Positions 29,654 to 37,337 of a stretch of 37,337 nucleotides of DNA are shown here, in pieces (position 1 is the stretch's first letter; every line of letters begins with the position of its first letter). The position numbers were made by a program, and so were the translations under genes. The notes beneath the pieces were generated by a model. It was not told the origin of the DNA. It searched no databases and was given only the letters and a program-made list of their open reading frames with translations. The stretch is from an uncultured Pelagibacteraceae bacterium (GTDB lineage Bacteria > Pseudomonadota > Alphaproteobacteria > Pelagibacterales > Pelagibacteraceae). The DNA lies in assembly GCA_902536925.1 (NCBI GenBank), contig CACAZL010000009.1:1-37337 (forward strand), in the 5' to 3' direction.

Positions 29654-31057
29654 TTAACTATTGTATTTTCTAACGTCATCTAAATTTCCAGATATAGCAG
29701 CTGCAGCAGCCATAGCTGGGCTAACTAAATGTGTTCTTCCACCTCGTCCTTGTCTTCCTTCGAAATTTCTATTTGATGTTGATGCACATCTTTCTTCTGG
29801 CTTCAACTTATCTGCATTCATAGCTAAACACATTGAACAACCTGGCTCACGCCATTCAAATCCAGAATTTTTAAATATTACATCTAAACCTTCTTGCTCT
29901 GCTTGTTGTTTTACTAATCCTGAACCAGGAACTATCATTGCATTTACATGAGAAGCAATTTTTTTATCTTTTAAGATTTTCGCAGCTTCTCTTAGATCTT
30001 CGATTCTTCCATTTGTGCAACTTCCAATAAAAACTTTATCAATTCTAATATCTTTTATTTTAGTTTTCGGCTTTAAACCCATATATTTTAATGATCTATT
30101 AATAGAATTTTTTCTGTCTTCGTTTAGCTCATTTTCAGGATCAGGAACAATTCCATCAATATCTACTACATCCTGAGGTGAAGTTCCCCAAGTTACCATT
30201 GGTTTAATATCTTTGCCCTCAAGACTGATTTCTTTGTCAAATACTGCATCACCATCAGACTTTAATTTACTCCAATATTCTAATGCTTTGTCCCAATTTG
30301 AATTCTTTGGAGACATTGGTTTACCTTTTAAATAATTAAAAACTTTTTCATCTGGCTCTATTAATCCAGCCCTTGCTCCACCTTCAATTGTCATATTGCA
30401 AATCGTCATTCTTTGTTCGACACTTAAATTAGAAATTAAGTTTCCAGCATATTCAATTACATAACCAGTGCCACCAGCTGTACCAATTTTTCCAATTATT
30501 TGTAATATTACATCCTTTGATGTTACTCCAACAGGAAGAGAACCATTAACGTTTATTCTAAAATTTTTTGATTTTTTTTGAACTAAAGTCTGTGTTGCCA
30601 ATACATGCTCTACTTCTGAAGTTCCAATTCCAAATGCTAATGCACCGAATGCTCCGTGAGTAGCTGTGTGACTATCACCACAAACGATAATAGTTCCAGG
30701 TTGTGTGAATCCTTGTTCTGGACCAATAATATGCACTATTCCTTGTCTTTTATCATTCATTCCAAAAAGATTTATTCCAAATTCTGCACAGTTTTTTTCT
30801 AGTGTCTCAATTTGTATTTTTGAATCTTCGTCAGTAATAGGCACTGATCTATCCGTTGTTGGAACATTATGATCTGCTACTGCTAAAGTTAAGGAAGGTT
30901 GTCTAACTTTTCTATTAGAATTTCTTAAACCTTCAAATGCTTGTGGACTAGTAACTTCATGAATTAAATGTCTATCAACAAATAAAAGTGAAGTCCCATC
31001 CTCTTGTTGATGAACAAGATGATCATTCCATATTTTATCATATATAGTTTGAGGCAT
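29654..31057 (-). CDS. leuC: 3-isopropylmalate dehydratase large subunit
   Basis: Aconitase-family subunit that holds the 4Fe-4S cluster of isopropylmalate isomerase. The 467-aa protein supplies the cluster ligands C347 (GSCTNGR), C407 and C410 (GCSMCLA). [18 protein letters not shown] (28-45) and [20 protein letters not shown] (127-146) are further signatures. It starts 9 nt after rplS, linking leucine synthesis to the ribosomal-protein operon, an arrangement known in other Alphaproteobacteria. Confidence 0.97.
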
Positions 31058-31066
31058 TGTAAAAAA

Positions 31067-31648
31067 TTATTTTTTTACTTCAGGATTTTCTTTTTTTTCA
31101 TCAGTTTTTTTTTCTACTGATGGGGTTTCTTCTTTACTTTCTTTTTTTTCTTCTTGTTTTTTTGCTTCTACTTTTGGAGCATCTTTATTGGAATCTTGTT
31201 GGCTATCTGCTGTTTTTTGTTCTGTATCAGGCATAACATTTTCTTCTGTTACTGCGTGAATCTTAGTTTCAACATCTATACCTATTTTCTTTTTAATTTT
31301 TTCAGCAATTCTTGCAGATTTACCTGTTCTATCTCTCAAATAATATAACTTGGCTCTTCTAACTTTTCCTGACCTTACAACTTTAATTGTATCTACAATC
31401 GGACTATATAAAGCAAATGTTCTTTCCACACCCTCACCAAAAGAAATTTTTCTTACAGTAAAAGAAGAATTGATATCTCTATTTTTTTTTGCAATACACA
31501 CACCTTCAAAATATTGAATACGATCTCTTTTTCCTTCAGTTATTCTAACTCCAACTTTAACAATGTCCCCTGGGAAAAATTCTGGATGCTTTCTCTCAGA
31601 AATAATTTTTTTTACTTTAGATTGATTAATTTCTTCAATTGTCTTCAT
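31067..31648 (-). CDS. rplS: 50S ribosomal protein L19 with long charged C-terminal tail
   Basis: Large-subunit protein at the 30S interface. The L19 core covers about residues 15-118 ([42 protein letters not shown], and [19 protein letters not shown]). From about 135 to 193 a low-complexity tail rich in Lys and Glu follows, making the protein 193 aa where 115-130 aa is usual. It is 1 nt after trmD and 9 nt before leuC. Confidence 0.96.
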
Positions 31649-31649
31649 T

Positions 31650-32345
31650 TTAATTCTCTTTAGTCTTTTTATATAATTGCCACAAATCTGGTCTTCGGTC
31701 GCGTGTTATAGCCTCAGATTGAGATAAACGCCAGTCTTTAATTTTGGCGTGATCGCCTGATAATAGCACATCTGGAACACTTTTTTCCTCCCATATTTGA
31801 GGTTTTGTATATTGAGGATACTCTAAAAGTCCGTTTTCAAAACTTTCTTCTTTAGCTGAATTTGTATTGCCAAGAATACCAGGAATAAATCTTAAAATTG
31901 CATCAAGAATTACAAATGAAGCTCCTTCACCTCCAGATAAAACAAAGTCTCCTATACTTACTTCCTCAATATTTCTTGTTTTTAATAATCTTTCATCAAC
32001 TCCTTCAAAGTGTCCACAAATTATATTTATTGATTTTTCTTGAGATAGTTGTTTTGCTAATTGATGATTGAACAACTTACCCTTCGGACTTAGATAAATA
32101 ATCTTTTCGCCATCTTTAACATTCTTATCTATTGATTTTGCTAATACATCTGCTTTCATTAACATTCCTTCACCTCCTCCATAGGGAGTGTCATCAACAG
32201 TTTTATGTTTATCAAATGCATACTCTCTTATATCCACAGTATCTATTTTCCATTTATTCTCTGATAGTGCTTTACCAAAAATACCTTGACCTAAATAACC
32301 TGGAAAAAAATCTGGATAGAGTGTGAATATACGAGCTTCTAACAT
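31650..32345 (-). CDS. trmD: tRNA (guanine-N1)-methyltransferase TrmD
   Basis: SPOUT-class methyltransferase that makes m1G37 next to the anticodon and prevents frameshifting. The 231-aa protein has [12 protein letters not shown] (7-18), [11 protein letters not shown] (51-61), and the knotted SAM-binding segments [11 protein letters not shown] (111-121) and [10 protein letters not shown] (131-140). It overlaps rpsP by one base; rimM, which usually sits between the two, is absent here. Confidence 0.97.
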
Positions 32346-32761
32346 TATTTTTTTTCTTCTTCCTTAGGTGCTTCTGCTGGCTTAGCTTCTTCCTTAGGTG
32401 CTTCTGCTGGTTTAGATGCATCTCCTTCTGGTTTCGCTTCTCCACCTTCGTCAGCTTTTTTTCTATCTTTTTTAGGAATTGCTTTTTGAGGATTGTTTCC
32501 TTTTTCAGGCATTGGCATTATATCGTTTTCTCCCAATAACCTTGCAACTCTTGTTGTTGGCTGAGCTCCTTGACCTAACCAATATTTAATTCGCTCAGAA
32601 TCTAAGCCAATTCTTTCCTTTTTATCCTTCGGTAATAACGGATTATAAAAACCTAATTTTTCTATAAACCTTCCGTCTCTTGGAAATCTACTATCAGCCA
32701 CAACAATTTTATATACTGGCCTTTTTTTAGTACCTCCCATTGATAGTCTCATTTTTAACAT
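32345..32761 (-). CDS. rpsP: 30S ribosomal protein S16 with repetitive C-terminal tail
   Basis: Small-subunit assembly protein. The S16 core is about residues 1-85 ([49 protein letters not shown]). Beyond it a tail rich in Lys, Glu, Ala and Pro extends the protein to 138 aa, against 80-90 aa in most bacteria. The tail holds a duplicated unit [10 protein letters not shown] encoded by a 30-bp tandem repeat. The start follows a strong AGGAG site set just after the ffh stop. Confidence 0.96.
32356..32415 (-). repeat. 30-bp tandem repeat, two copies, in the rpsP tail
   Basis: Copies at 32356-32385 and 32386-32415 match at 29 of 30 positions; the one difference is a C/T change at the 26th plus-strand base, within the final TTAG. 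Each copy encodes a ten-residue unit ([10 protein letters not shown]) of the S16 C-terminal tail, so a copy-number change would keep the reading frame. Confidence 0.9.
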
Positions 32762-32770
32762 TACTTATAT

Positions 32771-32775
32771 CTCCT
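32771..32775 (-). promoter_or_regulatory. Shine-Dalgarno site of rpsP
   Basis: On the minus strand this reads AGGAG, directly after the ffh stop codon and 9 nt before the rpsP ATG. It is a clear consensus site and contrasts with the absence of any such site in front of ffh. Confidence 0.75.
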
Positions 32776-34134
32776 TTATTTTAATTGATTAAATAGTTCA
32801 GGCGGGATCCCTTTATCCGCCATTCCTTTCATGTTTCCTTTAGACATTTTTTTCATCATTTCTGACATCATCTTAAATTGTTTTAACAACTTATTGATAG
32901 TGGCAATGTCTGTACCTGAGCCATTAGCAATTCTTTTTTTTCTTGATCCATTTATAATTTTAGGATTTTCTCTTTCTTGCTTTGTCATTGATAAAATAAC
33001 AGCTTCATTTTGAGTTATAATTTTTTCATCTATTCCTGATTGGTCCATTTGTGATTTAATTTTTGAAACTCCAGGGAGAAATGACATTATGCCTTCTATT
33101 CCACCCATCTTTTTCATTTGACGTAATTGAGAAAGATAATCTTCCATCGAGAATTGACCTTTTTTAAGTTTCTCTTCTGTTTTCTTTAAATTTTCTTGAT
33201 CTAAATCTTCTGAAGCTTTTTCAACTAAGGAAACGATATCTCCCATTCCCAAGATTCTATTTGCAATTCGATCAGGATGGAAAACTTCAAAATTCTCAAT
33301 TTTTTCTCCAACACCAAGAAACTTTATGGGGACCTCAGCAACATATTTCATACTCAATGCAGCTCCACCTCTTCCATCTCCATCTGCTCTTGTAAGTATA
33401 ATGCCGCTCAAATTTACTGTATTTTTAAATTCCTTTGCTACATTAGCAGCAACTTGACCTGTTAGAGAATCTGCTACCAGTATAGTTTCTGCAGGATTAA
33501 TAATAGTTTCAATTTGTTTGATTTCATTCATCATTTGAAAATCTATTTGTGTTCTTCCAGCAGTATCAAATAAAACTACTTCACAACCATTTAAATTTGC
33601 AGCACTTAAAGCTCTTCTACAAATATCAGCAGGAAGCTGACCTTCTATAATTGGCAAAGTTTCAATATTATTTTGTTCACCCAAAAGTCTCAATTGCTCT
33701 TGCGCGGCAGGTCTGTAAACGTCCAAACTAGCCATCATAACTTTTTTCTTATTAATTTTTTCTAAAAATTTAGCTAATTTTGAAGTTGTTGTAGTTTTTC
33801 CTGAACCTTGCAACCCAACTAACATGATTGGAACTGGAGGGACAGCATTAAGGGAGATTTCAGAATTCTTATCACCTAAAAAAGATACTATTTCGTCATA
33901 AACGATTTTTACAACCATATCCCCGGGAGAAGTTGATCTTATAATTTCCTGACCAAGCGCCTTAGGTTTAACTCTACCAATAAACTCCTTAACTACGTCT
34001 AAAGAAACATCGGCTTCTAATAAAGCCAACCTTATTCCTTTTAAACCCTCGTCAACTTGCTTTTCATCAAGAGATGGGGCTTTTTTTAATGAAGAAAAAA
34101 TTTCTTCAAATTTATTAGTTAAATTTTCAAACAT
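32776..34134 (-). CDS. ffh: Signal recognition particle protein Ffh
   Basis: SRP GTPase that binds signal sequences and 4.5S RNA and delivers ribosomes to FtsY. I start it at the ATG at 34134, giving 452 aa beginning MFENLTNKFEEIFSSLKK, the normal family start. An in-frame ATG at 34215 would add 27 residues encoded by the structured leader and has no family support. The N domain is about 1-95; the G domain has G1 GLQGSGKTTT (107-116), SLDVYRPAA and DTAGR (190-194). The M domain has the RNA-binding SRKKRIANGSG and a Met-rich segment MMSEMMKKMSKGNM near the C-terminus. No Shine-Dalgarno sequence is visible; only five bases separate the 3' strand of the leader stem from the ATG. Confidence 0.97.
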   Translation of the reverse strand: MFENLTNKFEEIFSSLKKAPSLDEKQVDEGLKGIRLALLEADVSLDVVKEFIGRVKPKALGQEIIRSTSPGDMVVKIVYDEIVSFLGDKNSEISLNAVPPVPIMLVGLQGSGKTTTTSKLAKFLEKINKKKVMMASLDVYRPAAQEQLRLLGEQNNIETLPIIEGQLPADICRRALSAANLNGCEVVLFDTAGRTQIDFQMMNEIKQIETIINPAETILVADSLTGQVAANVAKEFKNTVNLSGIILTRADGDGRGGAALSMKYVAEVPIKFLGVGEKIENFEVFHPDRIANRILGMGDIVSLVEKASEDLDQENLKKTEEKLKKGQFSMEDYLSQLRQMKKMGGIEGIMSFLPGVSKIKSQMDQSGIDEKIITQNEAVILSMTKQERENPKIINGSRKKRIANGSGTDIATINKLLKQFKMMSEMMKKMSKGNMKGMADKGIPPELFNQLK

Positions 34135-34138
34135 AATT

Positions 34139-34240
34139 TCGCACAGCAAGTATCGCACCAGTGGGCGAACCCTCGCTGACTGGTGTCGATCTCTTTGTTT
34201 CCAAAGACACCGCAAATTGCTGTATTTTGCGGAAGTGCGC
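34139..34240 (-). ncRNA. Structured, GC-rich 5' leader RNA of ffh with probable pseudoknot
   Basis: About 100 nt at 53% GC (54 of 101 by hand count), well above the surrounding AT-rich DNA, fold into several perfect stems on the minus strand. A closing 5-bp stem pairs 34235-34239 with 34140-34144. Stem A pairs 34226-34232 with 34210-34216 (CCGCAAA/UUUGCGG, 9-nt loop). Stem B pairs 34202-34207 with 34192-34197 around a GAAA tetraloop. Stem C pairs 34179-34185 with 34156-34162 (7 bp) and is topped by GGG-UUCG-CCC. The loop of stem A (ACAGCAA, 34217-34223) is exactly complementary to UUGCUGU at 34143-34149, a 7-bp pseudoknot. The pseudoknot and closing stem share two bases, so they compete in part. 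No terminator separates it from ffh. It lacks the 4.5S RNA core. I recall a predicted ffh leader motif in Pelagibacter; I cannot check whether this is it. Confidence 0.75.
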
Positions 34241-34244
34241 GTAA

Positions 34245-34250
34245 ATTATA
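34245..34250 (-). promoter_or_regulatory. Candidate -10 box for the ffh transcript
   Basis: The minus strand reads TATAAT, the full consensus, four bases before GCGCAC that opens the structured leader. A start 6-7 nt downstream would fall at about 34238-34240, just at the closing stem. The best -35 (TTGACT, plus-strand 34265-34270) is only 14 nt away, shorter than the usual 17, so the -35 is doubtful. Confidence 0.55.
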
Positions 34251-34293
34251 TTAGAGGTTCAAAAAGTCAATAAATAAGTTAAGTATTATTTAT

Positions 34294-35118
34294 ATGGAAT
34301 TTGAAGCATTTAAAATGGACGGATTAGGTAACGACTTTGTTATTATTGATCAGAGAATAAATAGTTTAAACTTATCAAATGACCAAATCTTAAAAATTTG
34401 TGACAGAGATTTCATAGGGTGCGATCAGTTGATCTACATAAACAAAAGTCAAAAAGCTGATGCTGATGTTGCTTTTTTTAACTCGGATGGAAGCCGCTCA
34501 GATGCATGTGGAAATGGAACTAGATGCGTTGCTTATTTACTAAGTATTGAAAAAAATAAAAAAGAAATTGAAATTTCGGTATCCTCAAAAATATTAAAAT
34601 CTAAGGTCCTTAATAATAAAGATGTTGAAACAATAATTGGAACTCCAAATTTAGAGTGGAACAAAATTCCTTTAAGTAAAGATCTTGATACTAAAAATCT
34701 ATCACTTGGTATGATTGATATTGACGGAAATAAAATGAATGGTGGTATTGCAGTGAATGTTGGAAACCCTCATGTCATATATTTTTGCGAGGATATAGAA
34801 AAAATAAATTTAAAAAAGTATGGACCATTAATAGAAAATCATGAAGTTTTCCCTGAAAAATGTAATGTCACAATAGCTCAAAAAATTAGTGAACAACATT
34901 ACAAAATTAAAGTTTGGGAGAGGGGCGCTGGTTTAACAAAAGCTTGCGGGACTGCAGCATGTGCAACGGCAGTCGCAGCTAATTTAAATCAACTACAAAA
35001 TAGTAATTCAAAAATAGAATTTTCAACAGGAATTTTAAATATTCAAATTGATAATGAATTAAATATAAAAATGAGAGGTCCTGTATCTGAAATTGAAAAA
35101 ATTAATATCAAAATATAA
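34294..35118 (+). CDS. dapF: Diaminopimelate epimerase
   Basis: Cofactor-independent racemase that turns LL-diaminopimelate into the meso form for lysine and peptidoglycan. The 274-aa protein has MDGLGNDFVIID (8-19) and the two catalytic cysteines C72 (DACGNGTRC) and C218 (KACGTAACA). It begins the plus-strand unit divergent from ffh and overlaps ftsY by one base. No Shine-Dalgarno site is evident. Confidence 0.97.
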   Translation: MEFEAFKMDGLGNDFVIIDQRINSLNLSNDQILKICDRDFIGCDQLIYINKSQKADADVAFFNSDGSRSDACGNGTRCVAYLLSIEKNKKEIEISVSSKILKSKVLNNKDVETIIGTPNLEWNKIPLSKDLDTKNLSLGMIDIDGNKMNGGIAVNVGNPHVIYFCEDIEKINLKKYGPLIENHEVFPEKCNVTIAQKISEQHYKIKVWERGAGLTKACGTAACATAVAANLNQLQNSNSKIEFSTGILNIQIDNELNIKMRGPVSEIEKINIKI

Positions 35119-36035
35119 TGGGTATTTTTGAAAAATTTAAAATCGGATTTAAAAGAAGTGCAAGTAATATAGCATCAGGTCTTAAAGAAATAATAGTTAA
35201 GAAAGAAATTGACGATACAACTCTTGATAAAATAGAGGAATTCTTGATCGGCTCAGACGTGGGCATAGATGCAGCATCAGAGATAAAATCTATAATTGCT
35301 CAAAAAAAGATTGATCCAAAAAATGATCCAATAAAGGAAGTTTTTGAAATACTTAATAATTATATTTTAGAACTAATGAAACCCCTAGAAAAGAAAGATT
35401 TTTTCTTAAAAAAAGAAAAGACAAATATAATATTAGTTTCAGGTGTTAATGGAGTTGGTAAGACAACTACTATTGGAAAATTAGGAAAAATATTTATACA
35501 AAATAATAATAAAGTTCTTTTTTCAGCATGCGATACATTTAGAGCAGCTGCTATTGATCAATTAGAAGAATGGGCTAACAGGGTTGATGCTAAAATTGTA
35601 AAATCAGATCCTGGTTCAGATCCAGCTTCAGTTGCTTTTAAAGCAATGGAAATAGCTCAAAGTCAAAACATAAATCAAGTAATAGTAGACACGGCAGGAA
35701 GATTACAAAATAAAAAGAATTTAATGGATGAATTAAAAAAAATAGGAAATGTAATTAAAAAAAGTGATGAAACAGCACCTCACGAGGTTATTTTAGTTTT
35801 AGATGCAACATCGGGACAAAATATAATTAATCAACTCGAAGAATTTAATAAATTACTTCCAATCACAGGCATCATAATGACAAAACTTGATGGAACTGCA
35901 AAAGGTGGAATATTGATTGCGATTTCAAAGAAATATAAAGTACCTATTGTTGGTCTCGGACTTGGAGAAAAAGAGGATGACTTACAAATATTTGAAGCTG
36001 AGAAGTTTGCAAGTGCTTTTACCCAAATTAATTAA
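35118..36035 (+). CDS. ftsY: Signal recognition particle receptor FtsY
   Basis: Membrane-associated GTPase that docks the SRP-ribosome complex at the translocon. The 305-aa protein has an N domain (about 1-95), G1 GVNGVGKTTT (109-118), ACDTFRAAAIDQLE (137-150), DTAGR (191-195) and TKLDGTAKGG (255-264). The long acidic A domain of E. coli FtsY is absent; membrane contact would rest on the short basic N-terminus (MGIFEKFKIGFKRSASN). ATG overlaps the dapF stop (TAATG). The 3' end overlaps the next convergent gene by 8 bp. Confidence 0.97.
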   Translation: MGIFEKFKIGFKRSASNIASGLKEIIVKKEIDDTTLDKIEEFLIGSDVGIDAASEIKSIIAQKKIDPKNDPIKEVFEILNNYILELMKPLEKKDFFLKKEKTNIILVSGVNGVGKTTTIGKLGKIFIQNNNKVLFSACDTFRAAAIDQLEEWANRVDAKIVKSDPGSDPASVAFKAMEIAQSQNINQVIVDTAGRLQNKKNLMDELKKIGNVIKKSDETAPHEVILVLDATSGQNIINQLEEFNKLLPITGIIMTKLDGTAKGGILIAISKKYKVPIVGLGLGEKEDDLQIFEAEKFASAFTQIN

Positions 36036-36591
36036 GCAAATTTTTAGAAATTAAAGGTTTATAAATGTTGCACTCAAAATTATTTTTTAGAGATTTATAA
36101 CCACAGTTTTCAGCATAAGAAGAGATTATAAAATTTAATTTGCCAGAGGTATTAGCAATTTCTAGCTTATTATTTTTTATGTCATATTTTAAATTTTCAT
36201 AAAAATTTTTTTTTGCACTTATCAAAATTAAAGTGTTGTTGTCATTTAATAAATAGTAAGCAAAATCCTCTGGGAAAAGTGGGTAATTATATTTTTTTGA
36301 TATTTTTTTAACTTTTTTTGGAAACCAGTCATATGAAATCAGAGGGTAATCTTTATTTAAATTTTTATCATATAAGTATAAATCCTGTGGAAAATCATTA
36401 ATATAATTAGAAAATTCTCCCTTTGCTAAAATAGCTTTCTTCCGTGTTTTAAAATATAGAGTGAACTCACTATTGTAAGAGTTCATTTTTCCAATATGAA
36501 AATAATTGTTATCATAGTACTCATTATTTATTTCTGAACTAAGTTTTGTTGGCAATATTAATAAAAAAAGTAATAAAAGGAATTTAAACAT
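36028..36591 (-). CDS. Secreted protein of unknown function
   Basis: A 187-aa protein I do not recognise. The first 19 residues (MFKFLLLLFLLILPTKLSS) form a clear signal peptide with a likely cleavage near residue 19, so the protein is probably periplasmic. The mature part is rich in Tyr, Asn, Lys and Asp, has no further hydrophobic segment, and holds two cysteines 11 residues apart near the C-terminus (ENCGYKSLKNNFEC) that could form a disulfide. The gene ends in an 8-bp overlap with ftsY and lies 48 bp downstream of the alpha/beta hydrolase gene on the same strand, so the two may be cotranscribed. Coding status is supported by the signal peptide and the gene-like spacing. Confidence 0.7.
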   Translation of the reverse strand: MFKFLLLLFLLILPTKLSSEINNEYYDNNYFHIGKMNSYNSEFTLYFKTRKKAILAKGEFSNYINDFPQDLYLYDKNLNKDYPLISYDWFPKKVKKISKKYNYPLFPEDFAYYLLNDNNTLILISAKKNFYENLKYDIKNNKLEIANTSGKLNFIISSYAENCGYKSLKNNFECNIYKPLISKNLLN

Positions 36592-36639
36592 ATCTAAAAT
36601 TAAAATTTAAAAGTGATGTGGATTTGTTTAAATTATGTC

Positions 36640-37337
36640 TTAATTTAAACTTTTTATAAAATTGTAGATTGATTGAATTAAATTTTTATTAAATTCCATC
36701 ATATGGTCGTCGTTGTCATTAAAATAATTTGACTTAACACCACTATATTTATTAAATATTTCTTCACCCATATAAAATGGCACAATATTATCCTTTTTCC
36801 CGTGCATCACGTGCATGGGAAACTTTATTTTGTTAATTTTTTCAATGGATTTGTATTTATCTTTTAAAATAATTTTTGCAGGAAGATATGGGTAATATTT
36901 TTGTGCCAAAATCTCCATGGATGTAAATGGGGACTCTAATATTATACCTGCAAATAAATTATTACTTGCGGTCTCTATTGCTACAGCAGTGCCAAGAGAC
37001 TCTCCATAGAGAACAATATCTTTATCTTCTATATCGTTTTGATTAAGCCATTCCTTGGCTTTAATTGCATCTTTATAAAGTCCAATTTCTGTTGGTTTGC
37101 CTTTGTTTCCACTAAAGCCTCTATATGCAAAAATTAAATAGTTTAAATCTAAATCTGCAAACTCATTTAGTTTATAAATTCTATTATCTAATTTTCCAGC
37201 ATTTCCATGAAAAAAAAGCAAAGTTTTAGAGTTATTATTTTTTTTGTAATACCATCCAACTAGATCATTATCAGATTGAATAGTTACTTTTTCGATTTTG
37301 TGAGATAGAGGTCCCTCATTTAAATAATTATTTTCTC
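36640..37337 (-). CDS. Alpha/beta hydrolase, YfhR/BEM46-like, 5' end missing
   Basis: Serine hydrolase of the alpha/beta fold. The frame stays open to the right edge. The residues encoded by 37222-37335 (including HKIEKVTIQSDNDLVGWYY) match the usual start of this family, so the TTG at 37221 is internal and the true start lies outside. Counting from that TTG, HGNAG (5-9) forms the oxyanion region, the nucleophile is S75 in LYGESLGTAVA, the acid is the Asp in HGKKDNIVPF and the His is in NDDHMMEF. Members are poorly characterised esterases or peptidases, some membrane-bound through an N-terminal helix. Substrate unknown. Confidence 0.85.
   Translation of the reverse strand, partial: ENNYLNEGPLSHKIEKVTIQSDNDLVGWYYKKNNNSKTLLFFHGNAGKLDNRIYKLNEFADLDLNYLIFAYRGFSGNKGKPTEIGLYKDAIKAKEWLNQNDIEDKDIVLYGESLGTAVAIETASNNLFAGIILESPFTSMEILAQKYYPYLPAKIILKDKYKSIEKINKIKFPMHVMHGKKDNIVPFYMGEEIFNKYSGVKSNYFNDNDDHMMEFNKNLIQSIYNFIKSLN

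Follow-up and report, generated by a model that had tools for sequence, protein, structure and literature searches.

We report here that the roughly 100-nt leader RNA in the gap between dapF and ffh of an uncultured Pelagibacteraceae bacterium is, by its Rfam match, the SAR11 copy of an already known RNA, RF01793 (ffh). Its gene context points to a role as the 5′ leader of the ffh–rpsP–trmD–rplS operon, and feedback by a ribosomal protein is the function that we favour, tentatively, from comparison of sequences. The DNA analysed was a single stretch of 37,337 nt (hereafter the window), in which the leader and the four genes, in the order ffh–rpsP–trmD–rplS, lie on the minus strand. The features referred to below are as follows.

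dapF, 34294–35118, plus strand: flanks the leader on the side away from ffh.
Leader RNA, about 100 nt, minus strand: lies in the gap between dapF and ffh.
−35 box, 34265–34270, minus strand: TTGACT.
−10 region, 34243–34250, minus strand: TATAAT (34250–34245) overlapping TAATTT (34248–34243).
Closing stem, minus strand: CGCAC (34239–34235) with GTGCG (34144–34140), present in this copy.
Hairpin P1, 34210–34232, minus strand: CCGCAAA (34232–34226) with TTTGCGG (34216–34210).
Pseudoknot, minus strand: ACAGCAA (34223–34217) with TTGCTGT (34149–34143), present in this copy.
Hairpin P2, 34187–34212, minus strand: core TCTTTG (34207–34202) with CAAAGA (34197–34192), GAAA loop.
P2 base, minus strand: CGGT (34212–34209) with ATCG (34190–34187).
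Shared strand CGGU, 34209–34212, minus strand: pairs with CCG of P1 or with AUCG of P2.
Hairpin P3, 34156–34185, minus strand: the published ffh motif, with a C·C mismatch and an adjoining, varying X–Y pair.
Tail box, 34144–34149, minus strand: TTGCTG in the window, followed by T.
ffh, 32776–34134, minus strand: first gene of the operon, SRP54 domain match, ATG at 34134–34132.
rpsP (ribosomal protein S16), 32345–32761, minus strand: PF00886 match.
trmD, 31650–32345, minus strand: named by eye; the translation matches the like gene behind rpsP in family f51 (see below).
rplS (ribosomal protein L19), 31067–31648, minus strand: named by eye; the translation matches the like gene in loci L372, L390, L391 and L393.

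The bases of every structural element drawn in the initial annotation were found, all on the minus strand. Just behind dapF stands an ftsY-like gene with an SRP54 domain (35118–36035, plus strand), and the leader is flanked on both sides by SRP GTPase genes, ffh and this ftsY-like gene, that diverge from each other.

The match to RF01793 spans 34148–34200 (minus strand), includes all 52 model positions and scores 58.2 bits against a cut-off of 35. The initial annotation had suggested this search and had guessed that an ffh-associated motif of Pelagibacter was already described; it was, by Meyer et al. (2009; PMC2704228), who found it in the same dapF/ffh gap of Pelagibacter as a single bulged hairpin, our P3 with its conserved C's, and gave its range as Rhodobacterales, Sphingomonadales and Rhizobiales. 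The account of the motif in that paper describes no function, and none was found for RF01793 in the one literature collection searched. Corbino et al. (2005; PMC1273637) was discarded as a source of the motif, as a term search finds ffh unmentioned there. Whereas the RF01793 model is one bulged hairpin of 52 positions, the leader described here adds P1, P2, a tail, competing helices, a wider range and retention before rpsP; of these, the fuller structure, the helix competition and the link with rpsP appear to be new with respect to the 2009 description, none of them having been met in the portions of the literature searched. S. meliloti offers a likeness of position: the predicted small RNA sm5, about 120 nt in the same dapF–ffh gap with a sigma-70 promoter and in the direction of ffh, is treated in its entry as an sRNA candidate with detection marked 'not done' (PMC2573895).

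The element consists of three hairpins and a tail. Across 50 aligned SAR11 leaders, P1–P3 are paired in 96.7% of 1,136 cells, and 78 cells are changed on both sides, whereas shuffles give 20.5 ± 6.2 such cells and slid versions no more than 12; the three hairpins of the initial annotation are in this respect real structure. P1 by itself is paired in 94.4% of cells of these leaders, with double changes, and P1-like hairpins also occur in other alphaproteobacteria. When P2 is extended to its base (10 pairs, 44 leaders), double changes are seen in 46 cells, against 11.3 ± 2.4, and affect six of the ten pairs. In P3 the C·C mismatch is kept in 43 of 44 rows from SAR11 and in 96 of 98 from elsewhere, and the bulged hairpin with two conserved cytosines that marks RF01793 recurs through the leader family. 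The X–Y pair beside the mismatch is A·C (42) or U·C (2) in SAR11 and varies among the 98 non-SAR11 rows (C–G 45, A·C 32, G–U 8, A·A 7, G–C 3, U–A 3). The UUCG loop singled out earlier turned out to be incidental, the conserved inner pairing GCGA/UCGC (44 of 44) enclosing a variable loop. The tail box after P3 has the consensus TTGYTGG in SAR11 and GTTTGG in other alphaproteobacteria (letters TTTGG outside SAR11: 90, 92, 64, 77 and 55%). A transcription attenuator, with P3 as the intrinsic terminator, would fit the high G+C content of this hairpin and the T's that often come next in other alphaproteobacteria (linker T 83, 60 and 42%). However, the window has GATAC as its linker and the linkers of some other genomes are A-rich, so that no full U-tract is conserved, and we rejected this reading as scarcely credible.

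The leader of the window folds at −41.2 kcal/mol, against −26.4 ± 3.4 in shuffles (z −4.4; 0 of 200 shuffles). A fold this stable, which starts close to the predicted transcription start, might simply be a constitutive, ligand-free 5′ stabiliser or translation aid, its folded end guarding the mRNA or presenting the start region. We consider this unlikely, although it deserves serious weight: the exact letters kept in the C·C mismatch and the tail box, together with the competing helices described below, exceed the needs of stability.

The promoter in front is conserved as well, in agreement with the earlier picture of a structured cis leader with its own promoter: TTGAC is kept in all 158 distinct upstream stretches (103 from SAR11 and 55 from other alphaproteobacteria). 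The proposal that the perfect TATAAT is the −10 box fared less evenly. This hexamer lies 14 nt from TTGACT and is matched at five or six of its six positions at that spacing in 46 of the 103 SAR11 sequences, which favours it; the hexamer is frequent across the window, with 75 occurrences against 63 expected, and a rival, TAnnTT-like consensus at 16–17 nt is the one shared by SAR11 and the other alphaproteobacteria. Both registers, TATAAT at 14 nt and the TAnnTT-like sequence at 16–17 nt, are therefore kept as candidates. With the latter, the 5′ strand of the closing stem may be partly untranscribed.

Two further helices of the initial annotation, the closing stem and the pseudoknot, behave differently from the hairpins. 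The closing stem is present in the window, where the minimum-energy fold includes it, and across the 50 SAR11 leaders it pairs in 51.6% of cells against 45.2% in shuffles (0 of 500), with a covariation score reached by 2 of 500 shuffles. However, because it pairs better still (64.4%) when its register is slid by three columns, we regard it as weakly supported across SAR11. The pseudoknot, as a conserved part, was not borne out: it is paired in 43.9% of cells against 44.8% in shuffles. Among 50 tree-spaced SAR11 representatives, permutation of loop against tail gave p = 0.19 by energy and that of leader against tail p = 0.39, whereas the 5′ arm plus loop against the tail gave p = 0.022 (0.028 with the tail cut to 16 nt). 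For all 86 loop–tail combinations the values were 0.47 by run length and 0.008 by energy, and for 102 unspaced leader–tail combinations 0.014. The low values leave room for long-range pairing that is lineage-specific and shifts register between clades, which we do not claim. When the leader of the window is folded in the P2-base state, the helix drawn as a pseudoknot becomes a nested one.

Masking of a Shine–Dalgarno site was likewise discarded as a class-wide mechanism on the distances between leader and ffh. In 55 alphaproteobacterial loci outside SAR11, between 18 and 127 nt separate the end of P3 from the ffh start, and in one further locus the motif ends about 285 nt before it; for this reason control through the ffh start region, which the initial annotation had proposed, is contradicted as a general feature. 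In the start region of the window the longest match to AAGGAGGTG is three bases (GTG); of 93 distinct start regions from SAR11, 12 contain no match of three or more to AAGGAGGTG. In the genome with the gap of about 285 nt (G527; L371, 190–540), a 116-residue open frame overlaps the leader and ends before ffh. By eye, the interval from the leader to the ffh start contains a long, G+C-rich inverted repeat in two related genomes (L160 and L162).

In SAR11, P1 and the base of P2 compete for the strand CGGU. RNAalifold on 44 SAR11 leaders extends P2 by a pair between columns 32 and 57 (C–G 33, U–A 9, U–G 1, U–U 1), and in P1 the same column 32 pairs with column 10 (G–C 40, A–U 9, G–U 1; n = 50). 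As one strand cannot pair twice, P1 and the P2 base exclude each other. Among 113 distinct SAR11 leaders the triple 10–32–57 reads GCG in 100, ATA in 11, and ATG and GTT in one each. On a tree of the ffh gene (112 leaders), the ATA triple arose at least two times on well-supported branches; substitutions in column 32 map to four branches, which also carry all three substitutions seen in column 57, a coincidence with a chance of about 1e-5 under random placement by branch length. Full replacements of G–C–G by A–U–A in SAR11 are two and independent, a third event (L058) lacking the pair at 32–57; the independent pairs are too few for a sign test to reach 0.05. Constraining each sequence to the P1 or to the P2-base state separates the two by 1.1 kcal/mol on average (range −8.7 to +11.7; 44 sequences). 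This three-way covariation is evidence for an RNA with two states; it does not of itself prove regulation.

Outside SAR11 the competing arrangement is seen in part. A base of the form NGGU..AUCN was identified in 21 of 55 loci (17 paired at 32–57, four with C·A) and in 24 of 98 rows of the model alignment (19 paired, five with C·A); on that alignment the 32–57 pairing gave permutation p values of 5e-5 for all pairs and 0.009 for Watson–Crick pairs, relatedness being ignored. The pair 10–32 is standard in 18 of the 24 rows and fails in six; it is standard in all 21 loci of the other set, where, however, complementarity was the basis on which the P1 arm was picked. The complete P1 does better than its shuffles at p < 0.05 in nine of those 21. 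A looser count, taking the best helix that ends at position 57 without requiring GGU/AUC, reached 46 of 55 and was set aside, as it takes in many other helices. One strand covarying with two exclusive partners is thus found in SAR11, partly in other alphaproteobacteria and no longer in family f51, whose 5′ hairpin, by eye, does not use the shared strand; because of f51, the competition of P1 and P2 is not universal.

Two competing helices and nearly invariant unpaired bases would also suit a riboswitch for a small molecule or ion, and, more speculatively, the A·C pair next to the C·C mismatch could sense pH. Yet the A·C is replaced by Watson–Crick pairs in many genomes, and, to our knowledge, no metabolite links the downstream genes. 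We regard a riboswitch as improbable.

RF01793 was matched in 222 of the 247 genomes of the SAR11 order. Among the 25 without a match, 20 were searched with Ffh and none of these contains an ffh start: an Ffh piece stands at a contig start in two (G046 and G177), six have partial matches of about 30% identity, which we read as FtsY-like, and 12 have nothing. Since no ffh start is found in these genomes, these 20 misses look like assembly gaps. In all 140 SAR11 loci fetched, as in the window, the motif lies directly upstream of ffh on the same strand. Among 289 alphaproteobacterial genomes, RF01793 was matched in 75 at E 0.001 (59 over the cut-off). An extended model of P1, P2, P3 and tail (R2) matched 131, that is 73 of those 75 and 58 more, with no match in the remaining 158; in 40 of the 58 that were fetched, Ffh is encoded downstream on the same strand without exception. 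In the first round of alphaproteobacterial loci, ffh follows in 56 of 60; in three of the other four rpsP stands in its place, and one (L196) is cut by the contig end after an apparent ffh start (by eye). Matches to a P3 word pattern, among those listed, include contigs titled Bdellovibrionaceae, Verrucomicrobiales, Phycisphaerae, Microbacterium and Vicinamibacteria (L258, L259, L274, L275 and L298), which may be chance hits, mislabelled bins or real copies.

These copies also bear on whether a trans-acting small RNA is released from the leader. Rfam files RF01793 under the type sRNA, Meyer et al. (2009; PMC2704228) report its detection among small RNAs from metatranscriptomes, and a Bartonella paper lists an ffh leader RNA among expressed sRNAs (PMC7717549). 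Against this, only one of the 131 genomes (G253) has a second match to the extended model, and all fetched copies with a readable downstream gene precede ffh or rpsP, whereas an independent sRNA gene would probably turn up in other places. A role in trans thus seems rather doubtful.

The gene that the leader keeps company with almost throughout is rpsP. In 77 of 78 genomes compared, rpsP follows on the leader's strand at no more than 6 kb (44 to 5,070 nt, median 1,506), the exception having rpsP on another contig; the earlier suggestion that the element might serve the whole downstream operon gains support from this. The three loci in which rpsP replaces ffh (genomes G295, G514 and G419, in which Ffh was not found) belong to the alphaproteobacterial family f51, represented by 18 genomes (these three and G533–G547; loci L372–L374 and L387–L400) of 0.9–1.4 Mb, six of them with a completeness of 90% or more and a contamination of 5% or less. 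The leader is present in 14 of the 18, and in all 14 rpsP follows directly on its strand with no Ffh match in the locus; dapF diverges behind the leader in 13, and the fourteenth locus starts near a contig end. The order rpsP–trmD–rplS is kept in L372, and ffh seems to have dropped out cleanly from between leader and rpsP. In the window trmD adjoins rpsP with no rimM between them (31650–32761); L372 has, by eye, a RimM-like open reading frame at that place (1203–1706).

The PF00448 (SRP54) profile, which catches both Ffh and FtsY in other genomes, gave no match over the cut-off in any of the 18 f51 genomes, one 41-residue match lying below it, against 14 of 14 controls. The 4.5S RNA model RF00169 was matched in none of the 18 against 11 of 14 controls, a weak test, as the 4.5S RNA of the window's own genome scores 42 bits against a cut-off of 40. 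On these profile searches, in partly incomplete genomes, f51 has apparently lost the signal recognition particle (Ffh, FtsY and 4.5S RNA). By eye, the P2 of f51 is a short hairpin made from the former base, with compensated changes at 33–56 and 34–55 (CGGUC/GAUCG, CAGUCC/GGAUUG and CAAUCC/GGAUUG), and changes in P3 are also compensated, with some G–U wobbles; on account of these compensated changes we take the leader to be under selection without the SRP. If the absence of SRP holds, the leader in f51 would be independent of Ffh and SRP RNA. As a guess, f51 could be a streamlined marine lineage, to judge from its genome size and gene order.

The initial annotation had named Ffh itself or SRP RNA among the possible ligands. 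Feedback by either, binding the leader and shutting off ffh, would account for a leader that precedes ffh in nearly every locus read, but the persistence of the leader before rpsP in f51, where Ffh, FtsY and 4.5S RNA are not detected, makes it very improbable. Mimicry of SRP RNA, which would make the leader dependent on Ffh, was rejected on the same grounds (leader in 14 of 18 genomes, SRP54 in none). Bacterial 4.5S RNA and the leader have only the genetic link to ffh in common. The internal loop of SRP RNA is fixed, whereas that of the leader differs from it and varies (the X–Y pair over 98 rows); by eye, no hairpin like P3 is seen in the 4.5S RNA of the genome itself, and RF00169 has no match in 30000–37337 of the window. 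The treatment of the ffh motif by Meyer et al. (2009; PMC2704228) likewise noted no resemblance to SRP RNA.

Because it heads a ribosomal protein operon and stands without SRP in f51, we tentatively take the leader to be that of a ribosomal protein operon. Like the operon leaders through which ribosomal proteins exert autogenous control, it is structured, lies in cis and precedes ribosomal protein genes (rpsP follows in 77 of the 78 genomes and, in f51, directly in all 14 loci), and it stays with rpsP once ffh is gone; the ribosomal-protein role itself is read from gene context. From its staying with rpsP we infer binding by a ribosomal protein. The leader would be a two-state cis regulator of ffh–rpsP–trmD–rplS, with a product of the ribosomal protein part of the operon as the signal, most likely S16 or L19 and less likely RimM or TrmD. 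The protein would bind P3 and the side of P2 and P3, shifting the exchange between P1 and P2, and excess protein would turn the operon down. As the leader is 1.4 to 5 kb from rpsP where ffh is present, control by S16 or L19 would have to span ffh. It is conceivable, and somewhat less secure than feedback by a ribosomal protein as such, that 'ffh motif' is a misnomer for an alphaproteobacterial rpsP(–rimM)–trmD–rplS leader in which S16 or L19 drives a strand-exchange switch between P1 and the P2 base, ffh being no more than an insertion; the proof of principle would be f51, with the leader kept on rpsP after the apparent loss of the SRP pathway as a whole.

The retention of the leader before rpsP in the absence of ffh ties together two open questions: an RNA described in 2009 for which no function has been found, and a ribosomal protein operon without known regulation. 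According to the section of a 2024 review that deals with it, rpsP–trmD–rplS (the trmD operon) is a rare case of a ribosomal protein operon with no information to date on how its expression is regulated (PMC10931766). With the extended model the RNA is known from a wider range of genomes, and a bacterial family that has apparently lost the SRP is of interest in itself.
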